Assembly (NCBI GenBank): GCA_017403885.1
Contig: JAFRDM010000037.1
Location: 1-48,785 of the forward strand
Direction of reading: 5' to 3'
DNA length: 48,785 nt
Origin: Oscillospiraceae bacterium
GTDB lineage: Bacteria > Bacillota > Clostridia > Oscillospirales > Oscillospiraceae
Below the pieces are notes generated by a model that was not told where the DNA came from, did not search any database, and saw only the letters and a program-made list of their open reading frames with translations. A program made the position numbers and the translations under genes. This document shows, piece after piece, positions 9,574 through 20,677 of this stretch (position 1 is its first letter; each line of letters starts with the position of its first letter).

Positions 9574-9611
9574 CAAATCGCCGGTTCTCCGACAGGAGAA
9601 CCGGCGATTTG
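9574..9611. terminator. Hairpin between convergent genes, probable bidirectional terminator
   Basis: Perfect 17-bp arms at 9574-9590 and 9595-9611 with a GACA loop. The U tract is poor on the plus strand; on the minus strand the hairpin is followed by a T-rich GGCTGTTATTTC. It probably ends both the 8833 lipoprotein and the minus-strand nucleoside operon ending at 9700. Confidence 0.65.
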
Positions 9612-9699: not shown

Positions 9700-10530
9700 T
9701 CAAATCAGCCTGGTGTTCAAAGCGCCGCCGCTCGCTTCGGCTATCTCATACAGGAGAGAGTCTTCGATGCGGTTGACGCGTTTCAGAGACGAGCCCTCGA
9801 CTATCAGATAAATTTGAGCGGCCTTGTCTATCGTCTCCATGAGCCCGAAGGCGTCGTCAAAGCTCCTGCCGCAGCAAAAGAGACCGTGGTGAGCCCACAG
9901 CACGGCATCGTGCGTCCGAATGAGCTCGGATGTGAGCGTACCGATCTGTGCGCCGCCGGGTATCATGGCGGGCACGACTCCGACCCCTTCCGGAAAAAGG
10001 AACGGGCATTCGATCATACTGGTCCACAGCGCTTTGGTTATTGTTTTTTCGTCGAGGGGAAGAAGAAAACTCAAAGCGATGACATGAGCGGGGTGAGCAT
10101 GATACATAACCCGGCATGCGCGGCCGGGCATGCCGGCGCGTGAGGAGAAGTTCAGAAGATGGCTCTCCAGCTCGCTGGTCGGTCTTCCGCCTTCCGACAG
10201 CCCCCAAACGACGCGATAGGACCGCGCGTCCTGCTCCAGGCGAATAAGGCACAGTTCTTTTTCCGGGTCGAGAGGGACGCTGCGCATAAAGCTGCCGCTG
10301 GCAGTCAGAAGAAAGTATTCTCCTCCCATCCCGCTCACCTCTGCCTCAAGCGGTACGGGCGGACCGGAGCAATTAAGATCAGGAAGCAGAGCAAGATCTT
10401 CCGGGCTGAGCCAGTAAGACAGGTTCCCTCCGTTCCTCTCGTGAAAACCCATGGCCGCGCCGTTGGCGCACAGCCGGATGAATTGTCTGACGAACGGAAG
10501 CTCCGTTAAGGGTACGTCAGGTCTTTTCAT
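9700..10530 (-). CDS. Class II aldolase, rhamnulose-1-phosphate aldolase (RhaD)-like
   Basis: The 276-residue protein is close in length and pattern to E. coli RhaD, a zinc enzyme splitting 1-phospho-ketoses into DHAP and an aldehyde. The GFHERNGGNLSYWL phosphate-binding region, catalytic Glu120 (PTSELESH), and zinc ligands H144, H146 and H215 (YHAHPAH, WAHHG) line up with E. coli E117, H141, H143 and H212. Start 10530 has GGGAG upstream and overlaps the LsrF-like gene by 14 bases. No rhamnose kinase or isomerase is nearby. In this operon the likely substrate is a pentulose 1-phosphate made by the MtnA-like isomerase; that is inference. FucA/DrdA-like specificity is the main alternative. Confidence 0.85.
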   Translation of the reverse strand: MKRPDVPLTELPFVRQFIRLCANGAAMGFHERNGGNLSYWLSPEDLALLPDLNCSGPPVPLEAEVSGMGGEYFLLTASGSFMRSVPLDPEKELCLIRLEQDARSYRVVWGLSEGGRPTSELESHLLNFSSRAGMPGRACRVMYHAHPAHVIALSFLLPLDEKTITKALWTSMIECPFLFPEGVGVVPAMIPGGAQIGTLTSELIRTHDAVLWAHHGLFCCGRSFDDAFGLMETIDKAAQIYLIVEGSSLKRVNRIEDSLLYEIAEASGGALNTRLI

Positions 10531-11407
10531 GTGAGATCTCCCGGAAAGCTTCCCATGCCTCAGCTGCCGACGCATCAGCGTGGACGATCATCGAAACAGC
10601 ACGCGCCATGGCGGCAGGACAGGCAGATTGGAATACGTTCCGGCCCATGTCAACGCCGGAGACGCCGCAGTCCATCGCACGTCTGACCATTTCGAGAGCG
10701 TCCTTCTCCGGCAGCTTTTTCCCGCCTGCGAGAACGATCGGCACAGGGCAGGCGGCTACGATCTCATCAAGCTCGTCGCAGAAGTAGCTTTTGACTATCT
10801 GCGCGCCGAGCTCGGCGATCATGCGGGTGGCCAGCTTGAAATAACGCGGTGTGCGTTCCATCTGCTTGCCTACGGCGACCACGCCGAGCGTGGGGATCCC
10901 GTATGTCAGCCCCTCGTTGATGCAGCGGCTGAGGTTGGAGATGCTTTCCTTTTCTCCGTCGGCTCCGATAAAAACCTGAACTGCCATCGCATCGGCGTCG
11001 AGCCGCAGAGCATCTTCAATGCCTACTGCCACGACTTCGTGACTCAGGTCGTCGTCAAGCACGGACGAACCCGAGCTGACGCGCAATGCGAGACCGCAGC
11101 GATTCCCGGATGGAACACAGGTGCGGAAAGCTCCCCGTGTGCCCATGAGGACGTCAACGCCGTCCATAAGCTCCGGAATCAAAAGGTCGAGACGTTCGAG
11201 CCCGCTTGTCGAGCCCATGAAGTAGCCGTGATCAAAGGCGAGCATAACGGTCTTCCCGTCATCCGGACGAAAGATGTGCGTCATGCGCCGCTGCATGCCC
11301 CAGTCCAGACCGCCGACGCCCTTTATCCCGCCCGGTAAGCGTCCGCCGGCGAAGGGGATCTCGGGACGGTAGTTTTTTGCCGTTTTCAATCCTTCTTTAT
11401 CAGCCAT
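10517..11407 (-). CDS. LsrF-like class I aldolase / 3-hydroxy-2,4-pentadione-5-phosphate thiolase homologue
   Basis: The product is 296 residues (E. coli LsrF 291). It shares LsrF landmarks: a GGLDWGMQ-R-IF opening, KTVMLAFDHGYFMGST-GLER, VPIVLAGGKKLPE-ALEM and GVSGVDMGRNVFQ. Lys206 in GAQIVKSYF lines up with the Schiff-base lysine K203 of LsrF. In E. coli LsrF ends AI-2 catabolism by moving acetyl to CoA and releasing DHAP. No lsrK, lsrG, lsrB or lsr-type importer is present, so AI-2 use is not supported here. It may be an aldolase or thiolase on a related five-carbon ketose phosphate. The start at 11407 has GAGGAA upstream. Confidence 0.85.
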   Translation of the reverse strand: MADKEGLKTAKNYRPEIPFAGGRLPGGIKGVGGLDWGMQRRMTHIFRPDDGKTVMLAFDHGYFMGSTSGLERLDLLIPELMDGVDVLMGTRGAFRTCVPSGNRCGLALRVSSGSSVLDDDLSHEVVAVGIEDALRLDADAMAVQVFIGADGEKESISNLSRCINEGLTYGIPTLGVVAVGKQMERTPRYFKLATRMIAELGAQIVKSYFCDELDEIVAACPVPIVLAGGKKLPEKDALEMVRRAMDCGVSGVDMGRNVFQSACPAAMARAVSMIVHADASAAEAWEAFREISHEKT

Positions 11408-11433
11408 GTTGTTCCTCATTTCTGTTTTTATTG

Positions 11434-11466
11434 ACACAGAGCCTACTTGAAAAGCAGGCTCTGTGT
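11434..11466 (-). other. Hairpin between the ECF S-component gene and the LsrF-like gene
   Basis: Perfect 11-bp arms (11434-11444, 11456-11466) with an 11-base loop. On the coding strand it is followed by CAATAAAAAC, not a U tract, so it is not a standard terminator. It could stabilise or mark processing between the transporter part and the aldolase part of the operon transcript. Confidence 0.5.
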
Positions 11467-11510
11467 GAGGATGGTTTTTCGGTTCGTGAATACGGCGGAA
11501 CGAGAGGGCC

Positions 11511-12299
11511 TTACTCCTCTTCGGGTTTCTCAAAAATGTCGGGACTGAGGCCCATGATACAGGAACCGATAACGGAGATGATGAGTGCGGGGAGGCTGAC
11601 CCATACAAGAGGCGTGCCGACCTGTGTCCCCTGTGCGCTCATGATGAGCGAAACGACGATCGCGACCAGGGGAGCCACGATCAGAAAGACGAGGCCAAGG
11701 GTATTGAATTTCATATTGGTGTTAAAGTCCTCGGGCTTCATGATGCTGGTAAAGGCGAGGCCCCACTTTTTAACGCGCATGCCGACAAGCGAGAGCACGG
11801 CGGCGCCGAGCACCAGCGGGAACAGACCGTTCGTGACGCCGATAATGCTGGCAAAGAGCGGATAAGGAAGCTGGCTGAACACAGCGCAGACACCGAAGCA
11901 AAGCCAGCACACGTCGCACAATGAGCCGCCGAGAGATCCGAGCAGGAAGCGAACGATCTTTTTGCCGTTCTCCGTTTTGGGTTCAACGTCTCCCTTTACC
12001 ATGTACCAGACCTTATACGGCACATAGGCAAAGAAAAAGTTTGCGATGAAGCCGAAGATCGACGCGACGCTCATCGATCCGAAGAAATCGCCGATGAGAT
12101 TGCCGATGGCGACACCCCATGCGCCCGCAGGCCCAAACAGAATGCCCATGACCGGGACGATGACGGTTGCGACTCGCACCTCAACGCTGAAGATGACAAC
12201 TGCCTTGAAAGGGATGAGAAGTGCCGCGTAAATAGCTGCGCAGATCGCCGTGAGGGTGATCATCTTGGGATACTTCCACATGGTAAAAATGTCTTTCAT
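11511..12299 (-). CDS. ECF transporter substrate-binding S component
   Basis: A 262-residue, very hydrophobic protein starting at ATG 12299 (GAGGAG upstream; a TTG at 12305 is too close to it). It opens with the ITLTAICAAIYAALLIPFKA helix. The segment GILFGPAGAWGVAIGNLIGDFFGSMS is typical of ECF S components that capture vitamins or other small molecules. The C-terminal part adds two helices, more than the usual six in total. It lies next to EcfT and shares the operon with a double ATPase, so a full dedicated importer is encoded. The operon context suggests a nucleoside as cargo; the S-component itself does not show it. Confidence 0.85.
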   Translation of the reverse strand: MKDIFTMWKYPKMITLTAICAAIYAALLIPFKAVVIFSVEVRVATVIVPVMGILFGPAGAWGVAIGNLIGDFFGSMSVASIFGFIANFFFAYVPYKVWYMVKGDVEPKTENGKKIVRFLLGSLGGSLCDVCWLCFGVCAVFSQLPYPLFASIIGVTNGLFPLVLGAAVLSLVGMRVKKWGLAFTSIMKPEDFNTNMKFNTLGLVFLIVAPLVAIVVSLIMSAQGTQVGTPLVWVSLPALIISVIGSCIMGLSPDIFEKPEEE

Positions 12300-12357
12300 T
12301 GTCAATACTCCTCTCTTTATTTTGCTTTTATCGCTTCTGCACCTCCGGTGCAGCTGC

Positions 12358-13137
12358 TCACAGCGCGTTGTAGACGGCGAACCAGCCGTTTGCCGAGATT
12401 ACGATCGAGCCGACTGAAAGCAGTATCGCGTATATGATCAGCGCCCAGTCGAGCCCGGAGAGCTGCAGCTCCATATAATTGCTTCTCTTTTTTGTGTAGC
12501 CGAACCCTTTTGCCTCCACGGCCATCGTCATCGTGTCTGCGGAGCGAAGGCCCAGCAGTATCGCAGGGACCACAAGCGGAACGGTTTTTTTGACCTTCAT
12601 CCAGAAGCCGCCGTTGTCGAGATCCAGCCCGCGTGATTTCTGCGCCGCGACGACGGTCATCGCTACGCCGGTAAGATGCGGAGTCATGCGCAGAGCGTTG
12701 GAAAAGGCAAAGGCGCCGCGGTATGGCAGCCCGAACTTCACACAGCCCTGAACAAGCTCTTCATTTCTGGTCGTCGACAGAAGGACGATCGCCATGATGA
12801 TGCTTGACATGGAGCGAAAGACAGAGGAAACGCCCTGACAGAGGTCTTCTTTTTTGATTATCCAGAACAAGGGCGTTGTGCCGGTGCCGAAGATGAGCCA
12901 AGACAGCAGGGTCATGATCGCAAGCGGGATAAGGATAACGCGAATCTTGTGGACGTTTTTCCATGATCTGGAGAAGGTTGTAAAAAGAAGGGTCTCAAAT
13001 ACGACGAATGCGCCGAGCCAGAGCTGCTCGACGAGAGCGGCGGAGGCAATGAAATGCGCCAAGGTCAGCAAAAGCTTCGTCCTGGGGTCAAGGCGATGAA
13101 CAAATGTGTTTCTGTCCAGATACAGGTACTTGCTCAT
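12358..13137 (-). CDS. ECF transporter transmembrane component EcfT
   Basis: This 259-residue membrane protein couples the ATPases to the S component. It starts with the EcfT pattern LDPRTKLLL and has the two coupling-helix motifs that dock on the ATPases, AQKSRG (165-170) and AVEAKG (206-211). The first is the usual A-x-x-x-R-G; the second has Lys in place of Arg. Six or so hydrophobic segments are visible. It sits between the S component and the MtnA-like gene, 15 bases from the latter. Confidence 0.9.
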   Translation of the reverse strand: MSKYLYLDRNTFVHRLDPRTKLLLTLAHFIASAALVEQLWLGAFVVFETLLFTTFSRSWKNVHKIRVILIPLAIMTLLSWLIFGTGTTPLFWIIKKEDLCQGVSSVFRSMSSIIMAIVLLSTTRNEELVQGCVKFGLPYRGAFAFSNALRMTPHLTGVAMTVVAAQKSRGLDLDNGGFWMKVKKTVPLVVPAILLGLRSADTMTMAVEAKGFGYTKKRSNYMELQLSGLDWALIIYAILLSVGSIVISANGWFAVYNAL

Positions 13138-13152
13138 GAGGCCACCTCCCGA

Positions 13153-14256
13153 TCAGATGATGGCGCCGTCCCGCACATACTCACCGAGACGCTCGGGCGG
13201 ATAGATCCCCTTGTCCGTCACGATGCCGGTTACAAACTCTGCCGGAGTACAATCAAAGGCGGGGTAAAAACCGTGCAGCTTTTCGTTGCGCGACGCGGTG
13301 CGGTGGGAAAGACAATACAGCACCTCGTTGCCGTCGCGGAGTTCGATCTCCACGTCCTCGGCCGTCTTCGATCCGGGGTCGGCGCCAAGACCGTAGGCGT
13401 AAAAGGGCAGATGATAATAATTCGCAAGCACGGCGGAGGGGAAAGTCCCGACCTTGTTGATGACGTCGCCCTTTTCGGTAATACGGTCCGCTCCGGCAAA
13501 GAAGATATCGATCTTCCCGCGCGACATCAGGTATCCGGGCATTCCATCGGTTATGAGCGTCGTGTCGAAGCCGATCTCCGAAATGCAGTCGGAGGTGAGG
13601 CGCGCGCCCTGAAGATACGGCCTCGTCTCACAGCAGAACGCCTTGACGTCGGTCTTTCCCTGACTCTCGAGGGCGAGATAGGTATATACGATACTTGCCT
13701 CAGCAAAGCAGTGAGTCAGAACGCCCTGCCCGTTCTCAACGAGTGATGCGGCAAAATTGCCGACGAAGTAATTGATCAGGTGATCGCGGCGGTAGAGCTC
13801 CGCCGTGCGCTCCCGCAGCACGGTCTCGGGATCCTTCCCCGCCTCGAGCGCTTCCCGGGCATAGTGAAGGAATTCCGAGGAGATATAGCGCACGTTGTTG
13901 TTGGTCGGTCTGGTCCTGGCTAACCTCGCACGTGCGTCTTCGAGCAGCGCCGCCGCCCGGTCGGGGGCGAGATCCTTGGCCAGCCTTGCGGCCTGCGTCA
14001 TTCCGCAGGCGACCGCAAAGGCGGGGCCGCCGCTTTGCGTCACCATTTTTTCGATCGCACGGGCCACATCGTCGTATGTGTCGCATCTTTCAAAGCGCCG
14101 CTCATGCGGATAACAGCGGCGGTCGAGTATATACACCGTTCCGCCGTCTTCATACCGGGCGACGTTTTCGGGCCTGAGCAAAAACGGGATCCTGTCTTCG
14201 TAAACGTCGTCCGGAATCGGGAGAAATTTCTTTTGTGCCTCGTTATATTGTGCCAT
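13153..14256 (-). CDS. MtnA-family aldose-1-phosphate isomerase (methylthioribose-1-phosphate isomerase-like)
   Basis: This 367-residue protein belongs to the MtnA / ribose-1,5-bisphosphate isomerase / eIF2B-alpha family, which opens 1-phospho-furanoses to 1-phospho-ketoses. Both catalytic residues are present: Cys183 in LTHCFAEA and Asp257 in FAGADRI. It also has CCETRPYLQGARLT, INKVGTFPSAVLANYY and YPAFDCTP-E...TDKG. Start ATG 14256 has AAAAGGAG upstream and overlaps the deaminase gene by 14 bases. No other methionine-salvage gene is nearby. With a nucleoside phosphorylase in the operon, ribose-1-phosphate or a 5-modified analogue is the likely substrate (inference). It could still act on methylthioribose-1-phosphate. 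Confidence 0.85.
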   Translation of the reverse strand: MAQYNEAQKKFLPIPDDVYEDRIPFLLRPENVARYEDGGTVYILDRRCYPHERRFERCDTYDDVARAIEKMVTQSGGPAFAVACGMTQAARLAKDLAPDRAAALLEDARARLARTRPTNNNVRYISSEFLHYAREALEAGKDPETVLRERTAELYRRDHLINYFVGNFAASLVENGQGVLTHCFAEASIVYTYLALESQGKTDVKAFCCETRPYLQGARLTSDCISEIGFDTTLITDGMPGYLMSRGKIDIFFAGADRITEKGDVINKVGTFPSAVLANYYHLPFYAYGLGADPGSKTAEDVEIELRDGNEVLYCLSHRTASRNEKLHGFYPAFDCTPAEFVTGIVTDKGIYPPERLGEYVRDGAII

Positions 14257-14701
14257 CTTGTACTCCTTTTTTCTCAAACAGTTCCTCAAACGGCGAGCAA
14301 AGCGGAGAACCGTCAAGATCGTAGGCCGGCAACAGTTCGGCGGCTGTCATGATAAGGACTTTTGACTTGTCCGGATTGGACATGATCACCTCGATATCCG
14401 GCCCATAGTCTATGATCGCCTGGCGGCAGAGTCCACAGGGCGCAAGCGGGTATTCGGCGTCAGAAACGACGGCCACCGCCGCAAAGTCCCGGTATCCCAA
14501 AGAAACCGCCTTCGTTATGGCGCAGCGTTCGGCACAGATAGACTCATACATGTTGCTCTGCTCGGCGTTGCAGCCGGTTATGATCTCGCCGGAACGCATC
14601 AGGAGCGCCGCGCCGACGTGAAAGCCTGAGAGGGGCACTCTTGCGTTTTTTCTGGCTTCCGCGGCCATGCCTATCAGAATATCGGCCGTGTTTCTATCCA
14701 T
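14243..14701 (-). CDS. cdd: Cytidine deaminase
   Basis: The 152-residue product is a small tetrameric-type cytidine deaminase converting cytidine or deoxycytidine to the uridine form. Zinc-site motifs are ICAERCAI (catalytic Glu with Cys ligand) and PCGLCRQ (two Cys ligands), with FHVGAALL near the N-terminus. The usual NIENASYG substrate loop is altered to NAEQSNMYES, which may hint at changed substrate preference. Start ATG 14701 lies within the end of the ATPase gene (8-base overlap), indicating coupled translation. A 5'-modified cytidine could be the true substrate. Confidence 0.9.
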   Translation of the reverse strand: MDRNTADILIGMAAEARKNARVPLSGFHVGAALLMRSGEIITGCNAEQSNMYESICAERCAITKAVSLGYRDFAAVAVVSDAEYPLAPCGLCRQAIIDYGPDIEVIMSNPDKSKVLIMTAAELLPAYDLDGSPLCSPFEELFEKKGVQDGTI

Positions 14702-16406
14702 TTTCCGTCCCCCTTTCAAGCACTTCAAGCGCATCCTCGACGCATGTGAACGTGCAGCCCAGCCGGTTGCCGATCTGCGTGATCTGGGGCGGCTTCAAAT
14801 GCAGGGAAATGAGCTGCTCCTCGTTTGCAAACACTTCGCGTACCGGACCGTCCATGAGCACATGGCTGTCGTTCATGATCACGGCGCGGTGCGCGTACTG
14901 GCTTGCGACCCACATGGTGTGCGTGATGATGATGACGGTGCGGCCGCTCTCGTTGAGAGACTTCAGCAGCTCCATTACGCCGCATTGCTCCTTGTAGTCA
15001 AGACCGGTCGTTGGCTCGTCGAGTATAAGGATCTTTGGCTTCATCGCGAGAACCGAGGCGATGGCGACGCGCTGACGCTCGCCTTTTGTAAGGCTGAAGG
15101 GATCCTCCTTTTCACGGCCCTCCAGGTCTACCGCGCGCAGCGCGTCCTGAACGGACTGTTTCAGCTCGTCCTCCGGCATTTTGTAGTTGCGCGGTCCGAA
15201 TGACACCTCATCCCAGATCGTCTCGGCAAATATCTGATGATCCGGGTTTTGAAAAACATATCCGATATAGCGGCTGAGATTGAAAATGCCGGTTTCGACC
15301 TCGTGGCCGTAGACAGTGATCTTGCCGGAGGTTTTTTTCAGCAGACCGTTGAGCTGCTTGGCGAGCGTCGTTTTACCGCTGCCGTTCTGGCCCATGATAG
15401 CGAGGAATTCGCCTTCCCGCACCTCCAGATTGACATGATCCACGGCGTTGCGGGCCGTGTCAGGATAGCGGAAGCAGACATCCTCCACACGGATCACCCG
15501 CTCGCCGTAGCGCTGCTCACGGGCCTTTTCGGCAGCAACGAGGGCGTTGTATTTTTCTTTGTTTATGCGGTATCCTTCTGACAGGAGCCTCTCGACACAC
15601 TCGTCGACCCGGAGGGCCGTGGGTTCCAGCCCGAGCGCCGCCTGCAGCTCGCAGGCGCCCAGGGGCATGACGCCCTTTTCTTTGATCAGAGCGGCTTTCG
15701 TCAGTATTTCCGATGGCGTTCCGTCAAGCTCTATCCGGCCGTCGACAACCAAAACGATGCGATTTGCCTTGATCAGCTCCTCAACCTCGTGTTCGACGCA
15801 GATGATCGTCAGATCGCCGTCACGGCGAAGACTGTCGGCAACGTCGATCACCATTTGCTTGCCCACCGGGTCGAGGTCTGTCGTCGGCTCGTCAAGTACG
15901 AGAATGTCCGAGTGGAACGCGAGTGCGGACGCGATCGCGAGCCGCTGCTTTTCACCGCCGGAGAGGGAGGAGGGCTCTCTTTTCTGGAATCCGGACAGAC
16001 CGACCATTTCCATGCACTCATCGACTCTTCTGCGGATCTCTTCGCTTGGCAGCCCCAGGTTTTCCGGCCCGAACGCCACGTCGAGAGCGGCGTTCGTACA
16101 GAAGAGCTGGGCCTCAAAGTCCTGGAATACCATCGAGACGGTGCTGCAGAGCTGATAGGGACGGTTGTCAGCCGTATCGAAGCCCTTTACGATCACGCGC
16201 CCGCTTTTTTTGCCCTTTGTATCATGGGGAACAAGCCCGTTGAGCGACATACAGAGCGTGGATTTTCCGGCGAGCGAAGGCCCGATCACTGCAACAAAGT
16301 CGCCTTTTTCGACTTCAAGATTGATTCCCTTGAGCGCTTCGACCTTTTTTTTCGGATATGTGAAATGCAGATCCTCAATGCGAATGATCGGATGATCTCT
16401 TTCCAT
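14694..16406 (-). CDS. ECF transporter double ATPase (fused EcfA-EcfA')
   Basis: The 570-residue protein holds two ATP-binding cassettes in one chain, where most Firmicutes use separate EcfA1 and EcfA2. Cassette 1: Walker A GPSLAGKST (42-50), signature LSGGEKQR (148-155), Walker B LVLDEP (169-174). Cassette 2: Walker A GQNGSGKTT (339-347), signature LTKGERQR (439-446), Walker B ILILDEP (459-465). The second signature is degenerate (TKG for SGG), so the two ATP sites probably differ. About 45 residues link the halves. It serves the EcfT and S component of the same operon. Confidence 0.92.
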   Translation of the reverse strand: MERDHPIIRIEDLHFTYPKKKVEALKGINLEVEKGDFVAVIGPSLAGKSTLCMSLNGLVPHDTKGKKSGRVIVKGFDTADNRPYQLCSTVSMVFQDFEAQLFCTNAALDVAFGPENLGLPSEEIRRRVDECMEMVGLSGFQKREPSSLSGGEKQRLAIASALAFHSDILVLDEPTTDLDPVGKQMVIDVADSLRRDGDLTIICVEHEVEELIKANRIVLVVDGRIELDGTPSEILTKAALIKEKGVMPLGACELQAALGLEPTALRVDECVERLLSEGYRINKEKYNALVAAEKAREQRYGERVIRVEDVCFRYPDTARNAVDHVNLEVREGEFLAIMGQNGSGKTTLAKQLNGLLKKTSGKITVYGHEVETGIFNLSRYIGYVFQNPDHQIFAETIWDEVSFGPRNYKMPEDELKQSVQDALRAVDLEGREKEDPFSLTKGERQRVAIASVLAMKPKILILDEPTTGLDYKEQCGVMELLKSLNESGRTVIIITHTMWVASQYAHRAVIMNDSHVLMDGPVREVFANEEQLISLHLKPPQITQIGNRLGCTFTCVEDALEVLERGTENG

Positions 16407-16421
16407 GTTCTTTTCCTCTGC

Positions 16422-17264
16422 TCAATCTCCCAAAAGCGCGGGATAGAAGAAACGTTTTCCGTGAAGCTTCTTTGCTTCATCCCAGGAGGTGAGTATGCGT
16501 ATGGCCTCGGCGCCCGCGCGGCAGGCGTGTTCTTCGCCGGAATGCTCGGCCCATTCTCCCGTGATGCGATTGGCGACGACGGCTGCGATCATACCTGCGC
16601 GAAAACCGAAAAGCCTTGACAGCGTGAGAAGAGTTGCGCCCTCCATCTCAAAGTTGATGATGCCTGCGGCCTTCATGTCCTCGAAAAAGCCTTTGCGGTC
16701 ATGCTTTTCATATCCGCCGTAGCTTGGCCTTCCCTGACCGGCAAAAAAGCTGCAGGTCGTACAGCCTGTGCCGAGATAATAGGTATATCCGAGCTCCTCG
16801 CAGGCCTGTACCAGCGCCATTGTGACCTCGAAGTTTGCCGCGGACGGGAACTCGTCGCGGACATACATGTTCGAGGTCCCGTCAAGACGAACGTTCGCGT
16901 CGTTGATAATCAGATCCCCGATGTGGATGTCCTCGCGCAGGGTCCCCGTTGAACCGACGCGGATGATGGCGTCCGGATTGTGCGGGAAGAGAGCCATCAG
17001 AGGATTTTCCATGCTGCCGCCGCCGATCCCGTGAGAGACGGCCGTGATGGGGGCGCCCTTATATGTGCCGCTGGCAACCGCAAAGCCGCGCTCCTTCGGC
17101 CAAACCTGCGCGCCCTCGTCCCACATGGAAGCCATGATCCTTACCCGGTCGGGACAGCCCGGCATCAGGACCTTCGGATGAACGATGGTGTCATCAAAGA
17201 AATTTGCGTCGCCGGTGTCAGAATGAGGCAGATTGCGCCTGCCTTCCTCCACAACTTTTGCCAT
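16422..17264 (-). CDS. Uridine phosphorylase-like nucleoside phosphorylase
   Basis: A 280-residue member of the NP-I family, closest in pattern to uridine phosphorylase (Udp), which splits uridine with phosphate into uracil and ribose-1-phosphate. Landmarks: VSHGIGGGSMENPL, RVGSTGTLREDIHIGDLII (phosphate/ribose region), VRLDGTSNMYVRDEFPSAANFEV, and NFEMEGATLLTLS with the ribose-binding Glu. An unusual Cys-rich stretch, GTGCTTCSFFAGQ, lies where Udp binds the base. It sits between the regulator and transporter genes. The operon deaminase feeding uridine to it is consistent; a 5'-deoxynucleoside is an alternative substrate. Confidence 0.88.
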   Translation of the reverse strand: MAKVVEEGRRNLPHSDTGDANFFDDTIVHPKVLMPGCPDRVRIMASMWDEGAQVWPKERGFAVASGTYKGAPITAVSHGIGGGSMENPLMALFPHNPDAIIRVGSTGTLREDIHIGDLIINDANVRLDGTSNMYVRDEFPSAANFEVTMALVQACEELGYTYYLGTGCTTCSFFAGQGRPSYGGYEKHDRKGFFEDMKAAGIINFEMEGATLLTLSRLFGFRAGMIAAVVANRITGEWAEHSGEEHACRAGAEAIRILTSWDEAKKLHGKRFFYPALLGD

Positions 17265-17291
17265 GGGAATCCTCCTCCTTTATTATTGTTA

Positions 17292-18149
17292 TTATTTGAT
17301 AGAGTTCCTTGTGCTCCTCAAAGCAGCCCAGATCTTCCTTTCATAGTTCGCCGTTTTCTCAAGATCGAGCATCTGGAGATTGGTAAAGAGGACGTCAATG
17401 ATGCCGAGCATGGAAATGGGAGAACCGGAAATGTCGCGCTGGAACTCTCTTGCCACACCGGCCAGGGTGACTGTAGCACCGGATCCGACAGGAGATTTCG
17501 CGTTGCAGGTGATGCAGATGACGTCTGCGCCGTTTTTGATGGCGAGACGCTCCGAGCGGATAAGGTTGTCCGCGGTTCCGGAGCGGGATACTATAATAAT
17601 CAGATCGCCTTTGCCCATCAGGTTGGACTGCATGATCTGCAGATGGGCGTCTGTGTTCATCACGACGTTGTAGTTCAAGCGGATAAGACGGGTATAAAAC
17701 GAGTCTGCAAGGCCCGCAGACGTGCCGGAGCCGAAAAGAAATACCCTTTTTGCGCTGCATATCAGATCGATGGCTTTTTTCAAGGCGTCCATATCGAGAT
17801 GCTCCAGCGTATCCTGAAGCAGCTGCATCTCCGAACGGAGGACCTTGGCTGCAATGGTAGCGGCGTCATCCTGCGCGTCAAGTTCTTCAAATATGACCTC
17901 GGTGGGCCGGCGCAGATCGGCCGCAAGAGCGATCTTGAAATCCGAATACCCCTTGAAGCCGACGCTGCGAACGAAGCGCAGCACGGTCGCATCACTTAAG
18001 CCGACATTGTTTGCAAGCTCCATCATGGACATGTTGACCATGTCGTCGGAGTTTTCCGTGACATAATCGGCAATGATTTTCTCGGACTGGGAAAGAGCCA
18101 TGTAATGAGCCCTGATGCTTGACAAGGCGCTGCTCGACGAATTGTTCAT
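17292..18149 (-). CDS. MurR/RpiR-family transcriptional regulator
   Basis: The 285-residue protein has the RpiR layout. The N-terminal helix-turn-helix (about 1-77) includes NNVGLSDATVLRFVRSVGFKGYSDFK. The C-terminal SIS sugar-phosphate domain (about 105-250) shows FLFGSGTSAGLADSFYTRL and DLIIIVSRSGTADNLI. Such regulators respond to phosphosugars, fitting control by a pentose 1-phosphate or its ketose. It is the first gene of the operon, 27 bases ahead of the phosphorylase gene. A palindrome at 18233-18248 is its candidate binding site, which would make it autoregulated. Confidence 0.92.
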   Translation of the reverse strand: MNNSSSSALSSIRAHYMALSQSEKIIADYVTENSDDMVNMSMMELANNVGLSDATVLRFVRSVGFKGYSDFKIALAADLRRPTEVIFEELDAQDDAATIAAKVLRSEMQLLQDTLEHLDMDALKKAIDLICSAKRVFLFGSGTSAGLADSFYTRLIRLNYNVVMNTDAHLQIMQSNLMGKGDLIIIVSRSGTADNLIRSERLAIKNGADVICITCNAKSPVGSGATVTLAGVAREFQRDISGSPISMLGIIDVLFTNLQMLDLEKTANYERKIWAALRSTRNSIK

Positions 18150-18215: not shown

Positions 18216-18226
18216 GATATTGTAAA

Positions 18227-18254
18227 ACAATCTAATATTGCAATATTATGTTGT
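18227..18254. promoter_or_regulatory. Palindromic operator candidate for the RpiR-type regulator
   Basis: TAATATTGCAATATTA at 18233-18248 is a perfect 16-bp palindrome. It lies in a 28-base imperfect palindrome bounded by ACAA and TTGT (18227-18254). It sits just upstream of the candidate -35 of the operon, between it and the divergent mazF gene. Position and symmetry suit a dimeric regulator; binding by the neighbouring RpiR protein is inference. Confidence 0.5.
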
Positions 18255-18469
18255 ATCACAATTATATGACGCGCAGACTGCGTTGTAAAGCTTCAAAACC
18301 AGAAAACAATAAAGATAGTTAATAATAGACAATTTTCGCATTCGATTATTGGCAAAGGTGTACTATGTATCGGCTTCTGTCGCGAATAATTTCAGCTCGT
18401 CAGGGGGAGAATAAGCCTTGTCCGGTACATATGATGGATTGGGCGACTTTCTTTCCCGGAGTGAACAAC

Positions 18470-18817
18470 ATGAGCATCGTCAAACGCGGAGAGATCTATT
18501 ACGCCGATCTCAGCCCCGTGGTCGGCAGCGAACAGGGCGGCATGCGCCCGGTGCTGATCGTTCAGAACGACACCGGCAATCGTCACAGCCCCACGGTCAT
18601 CGCTGCGGCGATCACCAGCCGCCTCGACAAGGCAAAGCTGCCGACGCATATCTCGCTGGCCGAGGGCAGCGCCGGACTCAACCGCGACAGCATCGTTCTG
18701 CTCGAGCAGATCCGCACGCTGGATAAATCCCGCCTGCGCGAACGCATGGGCCGCATCGACGAGAGCACGATGAACGCCGTCGACGCCGCCCTCGCCGTCA
18801 GCTTCGGATTGAATTGA
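18470..18817 (+). CDS. MazF/PemK-type endoribonuclease toxin (EndoA-like)
   Basis: The start at ATG 18470 has CGGAGTG upstream and gives 115 residues, the usual length of B. subtilis EndoA/NdoA. It has [39 protein letters not shown] and the later [13 protein letters not shown] block. These enzymes cut single-stranded mRNA at short sites and are normally held by an antitoxin. No antitoxin gene lies beside it: the 320 bases upstream are noncoding and the downstream gene is not antitoxin-like. In many Firmicutes the partner is an adjacent small CopG-like gene, so this is an orphan or has a distant partner. Confidence 0.9.
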
Positions 18818-19369: not shown

Positions 19370-20677
19370 ATGCGCATGACCGACCTGATCGCCAAAAAGC
19401 GCGACGGCGAGCGTCTGACCACGGAGGAGATCTCGGAGATGATCCGCCTCTACACGGCGGGGGAGATCCCCGACTATCAGATGAGCGCGATGTGCATGGC
19501 GATTCTCTTCCGCGGCATGGACGACGGCGAGATCCTGGACCTGACGATGAGCATGATGCGCTCGGGCGAGACGCTCGACCTCTCGCCGATCCGCGGCGTG
19601 AAGGCGGACAAGCACTCCACCGGCGGCGTCGGCGACAAGACCAGCCTTGTGCTCTGCCCGATGGTCGCCGCCTGCGGCGTGAAGATCGCGAAGATGTCCG
19701 GCCGCGGTCTGGGGCACACGGGCGGCACGATCGACAAGCTCGAAAGCTTCCCCGGCTTTGTCACGGGCATTTCCGAGGAGCGCTTCTTCGACAACGTCAA
19801 CCGCATCGGCATCGCGATCGCCGGCCAAACGGCAGAGGTATGCCCCGCGGACAAGAAGCTTTACGCTTTGCGCGACGTGACCGGCACGGTGCCGAGCATC
19901 CCGCTGATCGTCAGCTCCATCATGTCCAAAAAGCTGGCCGCCGGAGCGGACGTCATCGTGCTCGACGTCAAGTGCGGCTCCGGCGCGTTCATGAAAACGC
20001 CCGAGCAGGCGCGCGAGCTGGCCGCCGGCCTCACGCGCGTGGGCACGCTCGCGGGACGGAAATGCGCCGCCGTGATCACCGACATGGACGAGCCGCTGGG
20101 ATTCGCCGTCGGCAATGCGCTCGAGGTCAAGGAGGCGATCGACGTCCTCGCGGGCCGCACCGAAGCGGGCGAGCTCCTCGAGCTCTGTCTCACGCTTGGC
20201 GCGAACATCCTTACACTCGCGGGGCTCGCCGAAGATGAGGCCGAAGCGCGAGAGAAGCTGAAATCCACGATCCGCGACGGCAGCGCCCTGAAGAAGCTGG
20301 CGGAGATGGTCGAGGCGCAGCACGGCGATCCCCGCGCGGTCTACGATCTCTCACTGCTGCCCGCCGCGGCGGTGAAATGCGAGGTCCCCTCCGCGCGGAC
20401 GGGCTTCGTCTCGCACATCGAGGCAGAGGATGTGGGACTCGTCTCGATGCATCTCGGCGGCGGCCGCGCCACGAAGGAGAGCGCGATAGACCTCTCCGTG
20501 GGCGTCGTGCTGCATAAAAAGGTGGGCGACCGCGTGGAAGAGGGAGAGAGCCTCGGTACGATCCACGCCGCTGACGCGGCGAAAGCAGCCGAAGCTGCCG
20601 AGCTGCTGCGCAAGTGCTACGCGTTCTCCGACGAGCCGGCAGAAAAAACACCCTTTATCAAAGGGGTCGTCCATTAA
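19370..20677 (+). CDS. pdp: Pyrimidine-nucleoside phosphorylase
   Basis: This 435-residue protein is full length for the NP-II family (Pdp, or thymidine phosphorylase DeoA). It splits uridine, deoxyuridine and thymidine to base and (deoxy)ribose-1-phosphate. The phosphate-binding signature KHSTGGVGDKTSLVL is at 81-95, followed by MSGRGLGHTGGTIDKLE. The glycine-rich helical N-terminal domain and the C-terminal VGDRVEEGESLGTIHA biotinyl-like strand region are present. It is transcribed alone. It is unrelated in fold to the 16422-17264 phosphorylase, so the strain has two separate ways to open pyrimidine nucleosides. Confidence 0.93.
   Translation: MRMTDLIAKKRDGERLTTEEISEMIRLYTAGEIPDYQMSAMCMAILFRGMDDGEILDLTMSMMRSGETLDLSPIRGVKADKHSTGGVGDKTSLVLCPMVAACGVKIAKMSGRGLGHTGGTIDKLESFPGFVTGISEERFFDNVNRIGIAIAGQTAEVCPADKKLYALRDVTGTVPSIPLIVSSIMSKKLAAGADVIVLDVKCGSGAFMKTPEQARELAAGLTRVGTLAGRKCAAVITDMDEPLGFAVGNALEVKEAIDVLAGRTEAGELLELCLTLGANILTLAGLAEDEAEAREKLKSTIRDGSALKKLAEMVEAQHGDPRAVYDLSLLPAAAVKCEVPSARTGFVSHIEAEDVGLVSMHLGGGRATKESAIDLSVGVVLHKKVGDRVEEGESLGTIHAADAAKAAEAAELLRKCYAFSDEPAEKTPFIKGVVH

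Follow-up and report, generated by a model that had tools for sequence, protein, structure and literature searches.

A nine-gene operon of an Oscillospiraceae bacterium that may carry pyrimidine ribonucleosides into a variant of the dihydroxyacetone phosphate shunt

The stretch analysed here, called the window, comprises positions 1 to 48,785 (48,785 nt) of contig JAFRDM010000037.1 from an Oscillospiraceae bacterium (GCA_017403885.1), and all positions below are those of this whole stretch. On its minus strand, read from 18149 to 9700, lies an operon that probably encodes a pyrimidine-ribonucleoside variant of the dihydroxyacetone phosphate (DHAP) shunt. The original prediction had named nine same-strand genes in this span, with short gaps or overlaps, and their families; an open reading frame check found all nine in that order and on that strand, and Pfam and NCBIfam profile searches agreed with every family. 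The first gene encodes an RpiR/MurR-family regulator with an HTH_6 and a SIS (phosphosugar) domain (17292–18149). It is followed by a Udp-like uridine phosphorylase (PNP_UDP_1; 16422–17264), a fused EcfA-EcfA' pair of energy-coupling factor (ECF) ATPases with two ABC_tran domains (14694–16406), a cytidine deaminase, Cdd (14243–14701), an MtnA-like (IF-2B) predicted pentose-1-phosphate isomerase of the DHAP-shunt group (13153–14256), the ECF transmembrane component EcfT (CbiQ; 12358–13137), an S component of the QueT family (11511–12299), and two aldolases predicted to form DHAP, one LsrF-like of class I (Schiff-base; DeoC/LacD; 10517–11407) and one RhaD-like of class II (zinc; Aldolase_II; 9700–10530). 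Start codons were refined by eye from ribosome-binding sites, placing an ATG at 14701 for the deaminase, 14256 for the isomerase, 12299 for the S component, and 11407 and 10530 for the aldolases. The intergenic gaps from rpiR to rhaD are 27, 15, -8, -14, 15, 58, 103 and -14 bp. Active-site residues are kept in the operon proteins wherever they were checked, apart from some substitutions named below.

The operon starts 3' of a promoter-like site (TTTACA-17-TATAAT, minus strand, 18261–18289), a consensus match only, at 11 of 12 positions. An imperfect palindrome of 44 bp (18219–18262) overlaps this site, spanning its -10 region, and is a candidate operator for the RpiR protein; 18 of its 22 pairs match, and none of 400 dinucleotide shuffles reached 18. 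Downstream of rhaD, a terminator-like hairpin of 17 pairs (minus strand, 9574–9611) marks the operon end. A regional scan returned 8 promoters against a mean of 4.0 in shuffled sequence and 11 terminators against 10.7. As these counts are little above or equal to the shuffles, the weight rests on the position and strength of the promoter-like site and the hairpin. An Rfam search of the window for riboswitch control matched nothing except tRNA.

The phosphorylase scores below the TIGR01718 equivalog cut-off (191.5 against 280.3) and is thus a divergent member of its family. It was compared with homologs from two other genomes, G613, which belongs to the class of G514 (Spirochaetia bacterium), and G887, from the order of the window. 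All three proteins keep Q166, R168, F162, R30, R48, R91, M197, E198 and R223 of Escherichia coli Udp; we take Q166 and R168 to bind uracil, and most of the residues for phosphate and ribose are kept too. A deoC-linked relative on a Rhizobium plasmid has Glu and Asn at positions 166 and 168. The deaminase aligns with solved enzymes across the zinc motifs, which presumably have the same roles here. In G887 a Udp gene is followed by a Cdd gene, the first 51% identical to that of the window and 60% to that of G613, and the second 57% identical to that of the window. Elsewhere, locus L116 (9692–19079, genome G559) combines a Udp-like gene with nucleoside-type ABC importer, HAD phosphatase-like and class II fructose-bisphosphate-aldolase-like genes, as read by eye, and is perhaps another route for the ribose of uridine.

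The isomerase scored 203.4 bits on the MtnA equivalog TIGR00512, whose cut-off is 279, barely reached the broader subfamily model NF004326 (271.1 against 271), and scored 129.7 on the ribose-1,5-bisphosphate (R15P) isomerase model TIGR00511 (cut-off 314.1). It carries CFAE in place of the CNAG of MtnA and TQSG in place of RGAP. In a tree of 49 isomerases, 44 rows form one group (support 100/98) that excludes four rows of MtnA type and an intermediate one; one row, L112, has a long sequence of unusual composition. The group splits into the window with G613 (94/77, a moderate support), an 11-row clade of purine type, and a 31-row clade associated with MtnK or purine-nucleoside phosphorylase (PNP). 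Neighbors were tabulated with BLAST thresholds of our own choice and a reach of 6 kb, several contigs ending sooner. By this table, MtnK or a purine/methylthioadenosine (MTA)-type phosphorylase stands near the isomerase in 32 of the 42 other loci of the group, a class II aldolase in 25, and Udp in none. In the 31-row clade, MtnK or such a phosphorylase was counted at 23 loci, a FucA-type aldolase at 21 and no marker at five; the 11-row clade counts nine with an MTA/methylthioinosine (MTI)-type or purine phosphorylase, four with a FucA-type aldolase and five with an ECF trio. The layout of the 31-row clade, in which the Lactobacillus intestinalis copy is annotated as mtnK, isomerase and L-fuculose-phosphate aldolase, is like that of the 5-deoxyribose disposal clusters described in the available part of PMC6079011. 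Four loci from the class of G514 (L097, L099, L100 and L101) form a tight isomerase clade whose 6-kb surroundings contain none of the kinase, phosphorylase or aldolase markers.

All 44 rows keep the catalytic Cys, the Asp of GAD, an Asn-Lys pair, the Gln of QG and the Arg of the RPT motif, and all have TQ[SG] where MtnA has RGAP, while an MtnA-like GADR occurs within the group in the window and G613 only. The second residue after the catalytic Cys is Ala or Gly, and the third is Glu in 41 rows, Asp in two and Gly in one; no row has Lys there. The corresponding residues of R15P isomerase are Ser137 and Lys138, ligands of the 5-phosphate according to the accessible portion of PMC5789824; the residues given there also point to the Asp of GAD as the catalytic Asp. 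The window isomerase has Ala and Glu at these places, as mapped by motif and by distance from the catalytic Cys. Judged by the gene neighbors of its group, in a tree drawn without reference DrdI or E. coli MtnA, the window enzyme is of the DHAP-shunt/5-deoxyribose type. A methionine-salvage MtnA was rejected on tree position, motifs and the missed equivalog cut-off. An AlphaFold model built from five sequences has a mean pLDDT of 81.3 and a pTM of 0.83, and no conclusion rests on it.

The LsrF-like aldolase exceeds the NF006081 cut-off (371.8 against 297) and the RhaD-like aldolase that of NF002963 (241.4 against 170), the latter missing TIGR02624 (232.6 against 401). Fuculose aldolase models gave only 19–27 bits on the window aldolases, against 241 for RhaD and 372 for LsrF. 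The Schiff-base Lys of LsrF is aligned, and the RhaD-like protein keeps a zinc site of Glu117, His141, His143 and His212; we assume for both the roles of the residues to which they align. Members of both families release DHAP from 1-phosphoketoses. The second model for the LsrF-like protein covers archaeal aminodideoxyheptulosonate-type synthases, so that a transaldol function is conceivable. This protein is 51–52% identical to E. coli LsrF, 61% to the LsrF of an lsr operon on a Lactobacillus paracasei plasmid, where the gene is flanked by lsrK and an ABC importer, and 63% to a copy in genome G289, whose frame contains a stop and whose neighbors resemble an lsr operon by eye. Breakdown of autoinducer-2 (AI-2) was rejected, since none of lsrK, lsrG and lsrACDB is among the nine genes, although the LsrF-like protein itself is close. 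The nearest named plasmid relative of the RhaD-like protein is the RhaD of Treponema saccharophilum (47%), encoded beside an FGGY kinase. At three other loci (L129, L130 and L131), the neighbors of LsrF-like aldolases, as read by eye, are dihydroxyacetone-kinase-like genes and a gene for a small conserved protein.

A second locus joins a uridine phosphorylase to the same isomerase group. The isomerase of G613 is the closest that we found to that of the window (48%, 343 bits), the other 38 matching genomes among the 248 searched reaching 262 bits at most. On its 3.3-kb contig (locus L094), the end of an RpiR gene, cut by the contig end (44% over 70 residues), is followed by Udp (53%) and by a frame of 625 residues in which an N-terminal class II aldolase (Aldolase_II, 160.5 bits) is fused to a C-terminal isomerase. 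For the aldolase part the best model was an L-ribulose-5-phosphate 4-epimerase subfamily (169.0 against a cut-off of 251) and the second the NCBI haloarchaeal ribulose-1-phosphate aldolase (157.6 against 300), which ranked above the fuculose-phosphate aldolase models. The aldolase of an Anaerolineales locus, L014, ranks the same two models in the same order, again below their cut-offs, and the G613 part is therefore called a class II ketose-phosphate enzyme and nothing finer. The place of the fusion directly behind a uridine phosphorylase predicts phosphorolysis, isomerization and aldol cleavage in series. As an independent arrangement of genes, the locus supports a route from uridine over ribose-1-phosphate and ribulose-1-phosphate to DHAP.

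The importer genes have counterparts as well. The S component of the window exceeds the cut-off of PF06177 (QueT; 53.2 against 33.7 bits), a family whose ECF transporters are known for queuosine precursors, as given in the accessible text of PMC11130926; no queuosine gene is among the nine. A QueT-type S component, EcfAA' and EcfT recur in the isomerase operons of five loci (L014, L016, L102, L105 and L107). An MTA/MTI-type or purine phosphorylase is present in four of the five, an amidohydrolase in L014 and L016, and an RpiR regulator and a class II aldolase in several. L014 holds RpiR, EcfAA', EcfT, the isomerase, an MTA/MTI-type phosphorylase, the S component, the amidohydrolase and a class II aldolase on one contig, and similar sets occur in genomes of the class of G514. 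Its phosphorylase exceeds the methylthioinosine phosphorylase cut-off (232.8 against 223), and its amidohydrolase ranks TRZ/ATZ hydrolase models first and 5'-deoxyadenosine deaminase third, all below their cut-offs. These five operons apparently serve adenine-type nucleosides, and no description of such operons was found among the papers listed by searches of open-access literature. Trees of S components and ATPases did not place the window copies. Nucleoside import in the window operon is likely from the company of its genes, and is the weakest link of the proposed route.

We infer substrates, direction of flux, regulation and importer cargo as follows. The ECF importer would take up cytidine and/or uridine, the deaminase would convert cytidine to uridine, and the divergent phosphorylase would split uridine into uracil and alpha-D-ribose-1-phosphate. 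The DHAP-shunt-type MtnA paralog would then turn ribose-1-phosphate directly into D-ribulose-1-phosphate, with no kinase, and the LsrF-like and/or RhaD-like aldolase would cleave the latter to DHAP and glycolaldehyde. The RpiR regulator would sense a phosphosugar and control the single promoter. We give this mechanism a better than even chance of being correct. The wider proposition seems to us evenly poised: that bacteria have a route for pyrimidine ribonucleosides free of kinase and mutase, through a new ribose-1-phosphate isomerase activity, and that this route belongs to a set of three sister modules (adenine-nucleoside/ECF, 5-deoxyribose/kinase and pyrimidine/Udp) built on one isomerase group.

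Isomerization of a pentose-1-phosphate by an MtnA paralog and release of DHAP by an aldolase are common to this proposal and to the DHAP shunt and 5-deoxyribose disposal (MtnK-MtnA-Ald2 in E. coli, DrdK-DrdI-DrdA in Bacillus thuringiensis). The window operon differs from these in having no MtnK/DrdK kinase or purine/MTA phosphorylase (MTAP)-type enzyme, in having Cdd and Udp at the front and its own ECF importer, and in replacing FucA-type aldolases (DrdA/Ald2), to which the G613 aldolase is nearer, by LsrF and RhaD types; its substrate is probably a 5-hydroxy sugar. The purine modules share the QueT-type importer and the isomerase with the window, and where the window has Udp and Cdd, four of these five modules have a phosphorylase of MTA/MTI or purine type. 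In the classical udp/cdd/deoB route, Cdd and Udp yield ribose-1-phosphate, which enters the pentose phosphate pathway through phosphopentomutase; the window operon shares the first two enzymes and adds the isomerase and the aldolases. In the L-fucose, L-rhamnose and D-arabinose routes of E. coli, the free sugar is isomerized and phosphorylated by a kinase, and the 1-phosphoketose (D-ribulose-1-phosphate too, by FucA) then yields DHAP and an aldehyde on cleavage, whereas in the window the phosphate would come from phosphorolysis and isomerization would follow. The non-carboxylating pentose bisphosphate pathway of haloarchaea, so far as the available text of PMC9700705 describes it, has the same beginning and end, namely phosphorolysis of nucleosides and cleavage of ribulose-1-phosphate to DHAP and glycolaldehyde. 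Between them, by the same partial source, haloarchaea phosphorylate ribose-1-phosphate, isomerize R15P and dephosphorylate ribulose-1,5-bisphosphate, whereas the window operon has no such kinase or phosphatase and its isomerase lacks the two 5-phosphate ligands. Among the papers listed by the literature searches, none described direct isomerization of ribose-1-phosphate as a route from uridine, a weak absence as the searches covered open-access literature only. In the portions available of two DHAP-shunt papers (PMC10986504 and PMC12632272), no word begins with "ribulose-1-phosphate", "ribulose" or "glycolaldehyde".

The set as a whole is rare in the genomes examined. The draws of genomes from the class and the order are samples of larger groups. 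The isomerase was found in 13 of 60 relatives at E<=0.001, in 15 of 391 class genomes at E<=1e-60 (the source genome included in both) and in 39 of 248 genomes in the class of G514 at E<=1e-50, and no other copy above 47% identity was seen in the 60 relatives or the 391 class genomes. Genome contigs gave four relatives of 38–42% identity among 50 pattern stretches. Apart from the window's own, the surroundings were read for 8 of the 12 relatives and 12 of the 14 class genomes, and, in the class of G514, for 20 of the 41 match rows plus L016, L017 and L117. The source genome is also counted among the 5 of 391 class genomes with the S component (E<=1e-15), the 2 of 295 order genomes with the window Udp (E<=1e-45) and the 5 of 321 genomes with the LsrF-like aldolase (E<=1e-60). 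The window Udp was absent from 150 genomes in the class of the Anaerolineales genome and, within the family of G887 (21 genomes), was present in G887 alone; the G613 Udp occurs in two of seven genomes of its family, G613 included. Viral contigs gave no matches, and plasmid matches reached at most 43.7% for Udp and 41.5% for the isomerase.

These distributions, with several other results, weigh against the proposed route. Among the genomes examined, the nine genes stand together in the window only; the expectation that their order would be conserved in relatives was not borne out, as only RpiR-Udp-isomerase recurs, in G613. The G613 contig itself is a 3.3-kb piece of a draft genome with neither Cdd nor ECF genes, and no isomerase was found in the 20 kb read around the Udp-Cdd pair of G887. 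Placing the window isomerase in the purine clade was not rejected (AU p 0.062; for the 31-row MtnK/PNP clade p was 0.024). The nearest LsrF relatives sit in AI-2 (lsr) operons. RhaD-type aldolases typically give (3R,4S) products, and D-ribulose-1-phosphate is (3R,4R); as the usual C4 configuration does not fit, the LsrF-like protein is the better candidate for the main cut. An S component 46% identical to that of the window (L071, 9710–10522) belongs to a QueT-type EcfAA'-EcfT-S set within what looks by eye like a cobalamin cluster. In the window Udp, Thr94 is replaced by Ser and Glu49 by Gly. His8 of E. coli Udp, which contacts the 5'-hydroxyl, aligns with His14 of the window in an N-terminus that is hard to align, and is Thr in G613 and Gln in G887. 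The Km of B. thuringiensis DrdI for its own substrate is 22 mM in the available part of PMC6079011, so that activity of the window isomerase on ribose-1-phosphate cannot be presumed. The source genome has transketolase matches. The predicted chain from pyrimidine nucleoside over pentose-1-phosphate and 1-phosphoketose to DHAP gains from the G613 locus, the isomerase group and the uracil pocket of Udp and loses from the unconserved gene order; given the transketolase matches, a bypass of the pentose phosphate pathway, also predicted, would be an alternative in this genome and need not be a necessity.

Some of these points would fit a pyrimidine nucleoside modified at the 5' position (5'-deoxy, 5'-amino and the like), salvaged by the same steps with acetaldehyde or another aldehyde, not glycolaldehyde, as second product. 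The operon may serve such a substrate, although we consider this rather unlikely. The isomerase groups around enzymes of 5-deoxyribose and methylthioribose-1-phosphate, the His for the 5'-hydroxyl is unsure in the window and not conserved in the other two Udp proteins, and Glu49 is lost in all three. On the other hand, the uracil pocket and the Cdd motifs look ordinary, we know of no common natural 5'-deoxy pyrimidine nucleoside, and radical-SAM and polyamine chemistry yield adenine nucleosides.

Less probable still is a transcript with two functions, in which cytidine and uridine are broken down beside a separate pair of aldolases for 1-phosphoketoses (rhamnulose- or AI-2-like) and the ECF importer carries other cargo, such as a queuosine or cobamide precursor. 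The QueT family of the S component, its relative in the cobalamin-like cluster and the lsr and FGGY-kinase operons of the aldolase relatives would all agree with this. A sugar kinase, lsrK/lsrG, a rhamnose isomerase and a queuosine gene are all absent among the nine, and in G613 the steps are linked by the fusion of isomerase and aldolase that follows Udp.

It is more doubtful that the operon is an ordinary DHAP shunt for 5'-deoxyadenosine or MTA, with Cdd and Udp as bystanders or switched to purine substrates. The sister module with an MTA-type phosphorylase does have a similar ECF importer, and, in the part of PMC9700705 available, guanosine is the preferred substrate of a haloarchaeal "uridine phosphorylase" from the pentose bisphosphate route, a caution for any substrate assigned to Udp. 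The uracil-binding Gln and Arg are nevertheless kept in all three Udp proteins, the Udp link is repeated in G613, and MtnK, a nucleosidase, MTAP and an amidohydrolase deaminase are absent among the nine genes. Handling of nucleoside monophosphates or R15P, as in archaeal pentose bisphosphate pathways, was rejected as very improbable: PF01008 does cover R15P isomerase and haloarchaea end in the same ribulose-1-phosphate cleavage (PMC9700705, available text), but the two 5-phosphate ligands are replaced and neither a ribose-1-phosphate kinase nor a ribulose-1,5-bisphosphate phosphatase is encoded among the nine genes.

Cytidine and uridine released from RNA are common nutrients, whose ribose, in the current view, passes through phosphopentomutase into the pentose phosphate pathway. 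If the cleavage of ribose-1-phosphate to DHAP by way of ribulose-1-phosphate is true, it would be a bacterial counterpart of the haloarchaeal route, shorter by one kinase and one phosphatase. A shortcut of this kind has so far been described for 5-deoxy sugars. The MtnA family would gain a new substrate and QueT-family ECF transporters a role in nucleoside catabolism, and the G613 fusion would make the route testable with two proteins.

The contig is an ordinary chromosome stretch, with rpsD and rpoA at its left end as read by eye. The operon has a G+C content of 0.564, against 0.606 and 0.611 in its flanks, and among 102 genomes of the genus its type of Cdd is found in the source genome alone, the next best match scoring 96 bits against 331 (10 of the 102 have no Cdd at E<=1e-20). 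As its G+C is below that of the surroundings and its Cdd type is absent from the other genus genomes searched, the operon looks acquired. Directly upstream of its promoter, on the opposite strand, lies a gene of the PemK/MazF-like toxin family (18365–18817, plus strand). A second gene for pyrimidine nucleoside breakdown, encoding the pyrimidine-nucleoside phosphorylase PyNP (19370–20677, plus strand), is found 1.2 kb past the first gene of the operon.

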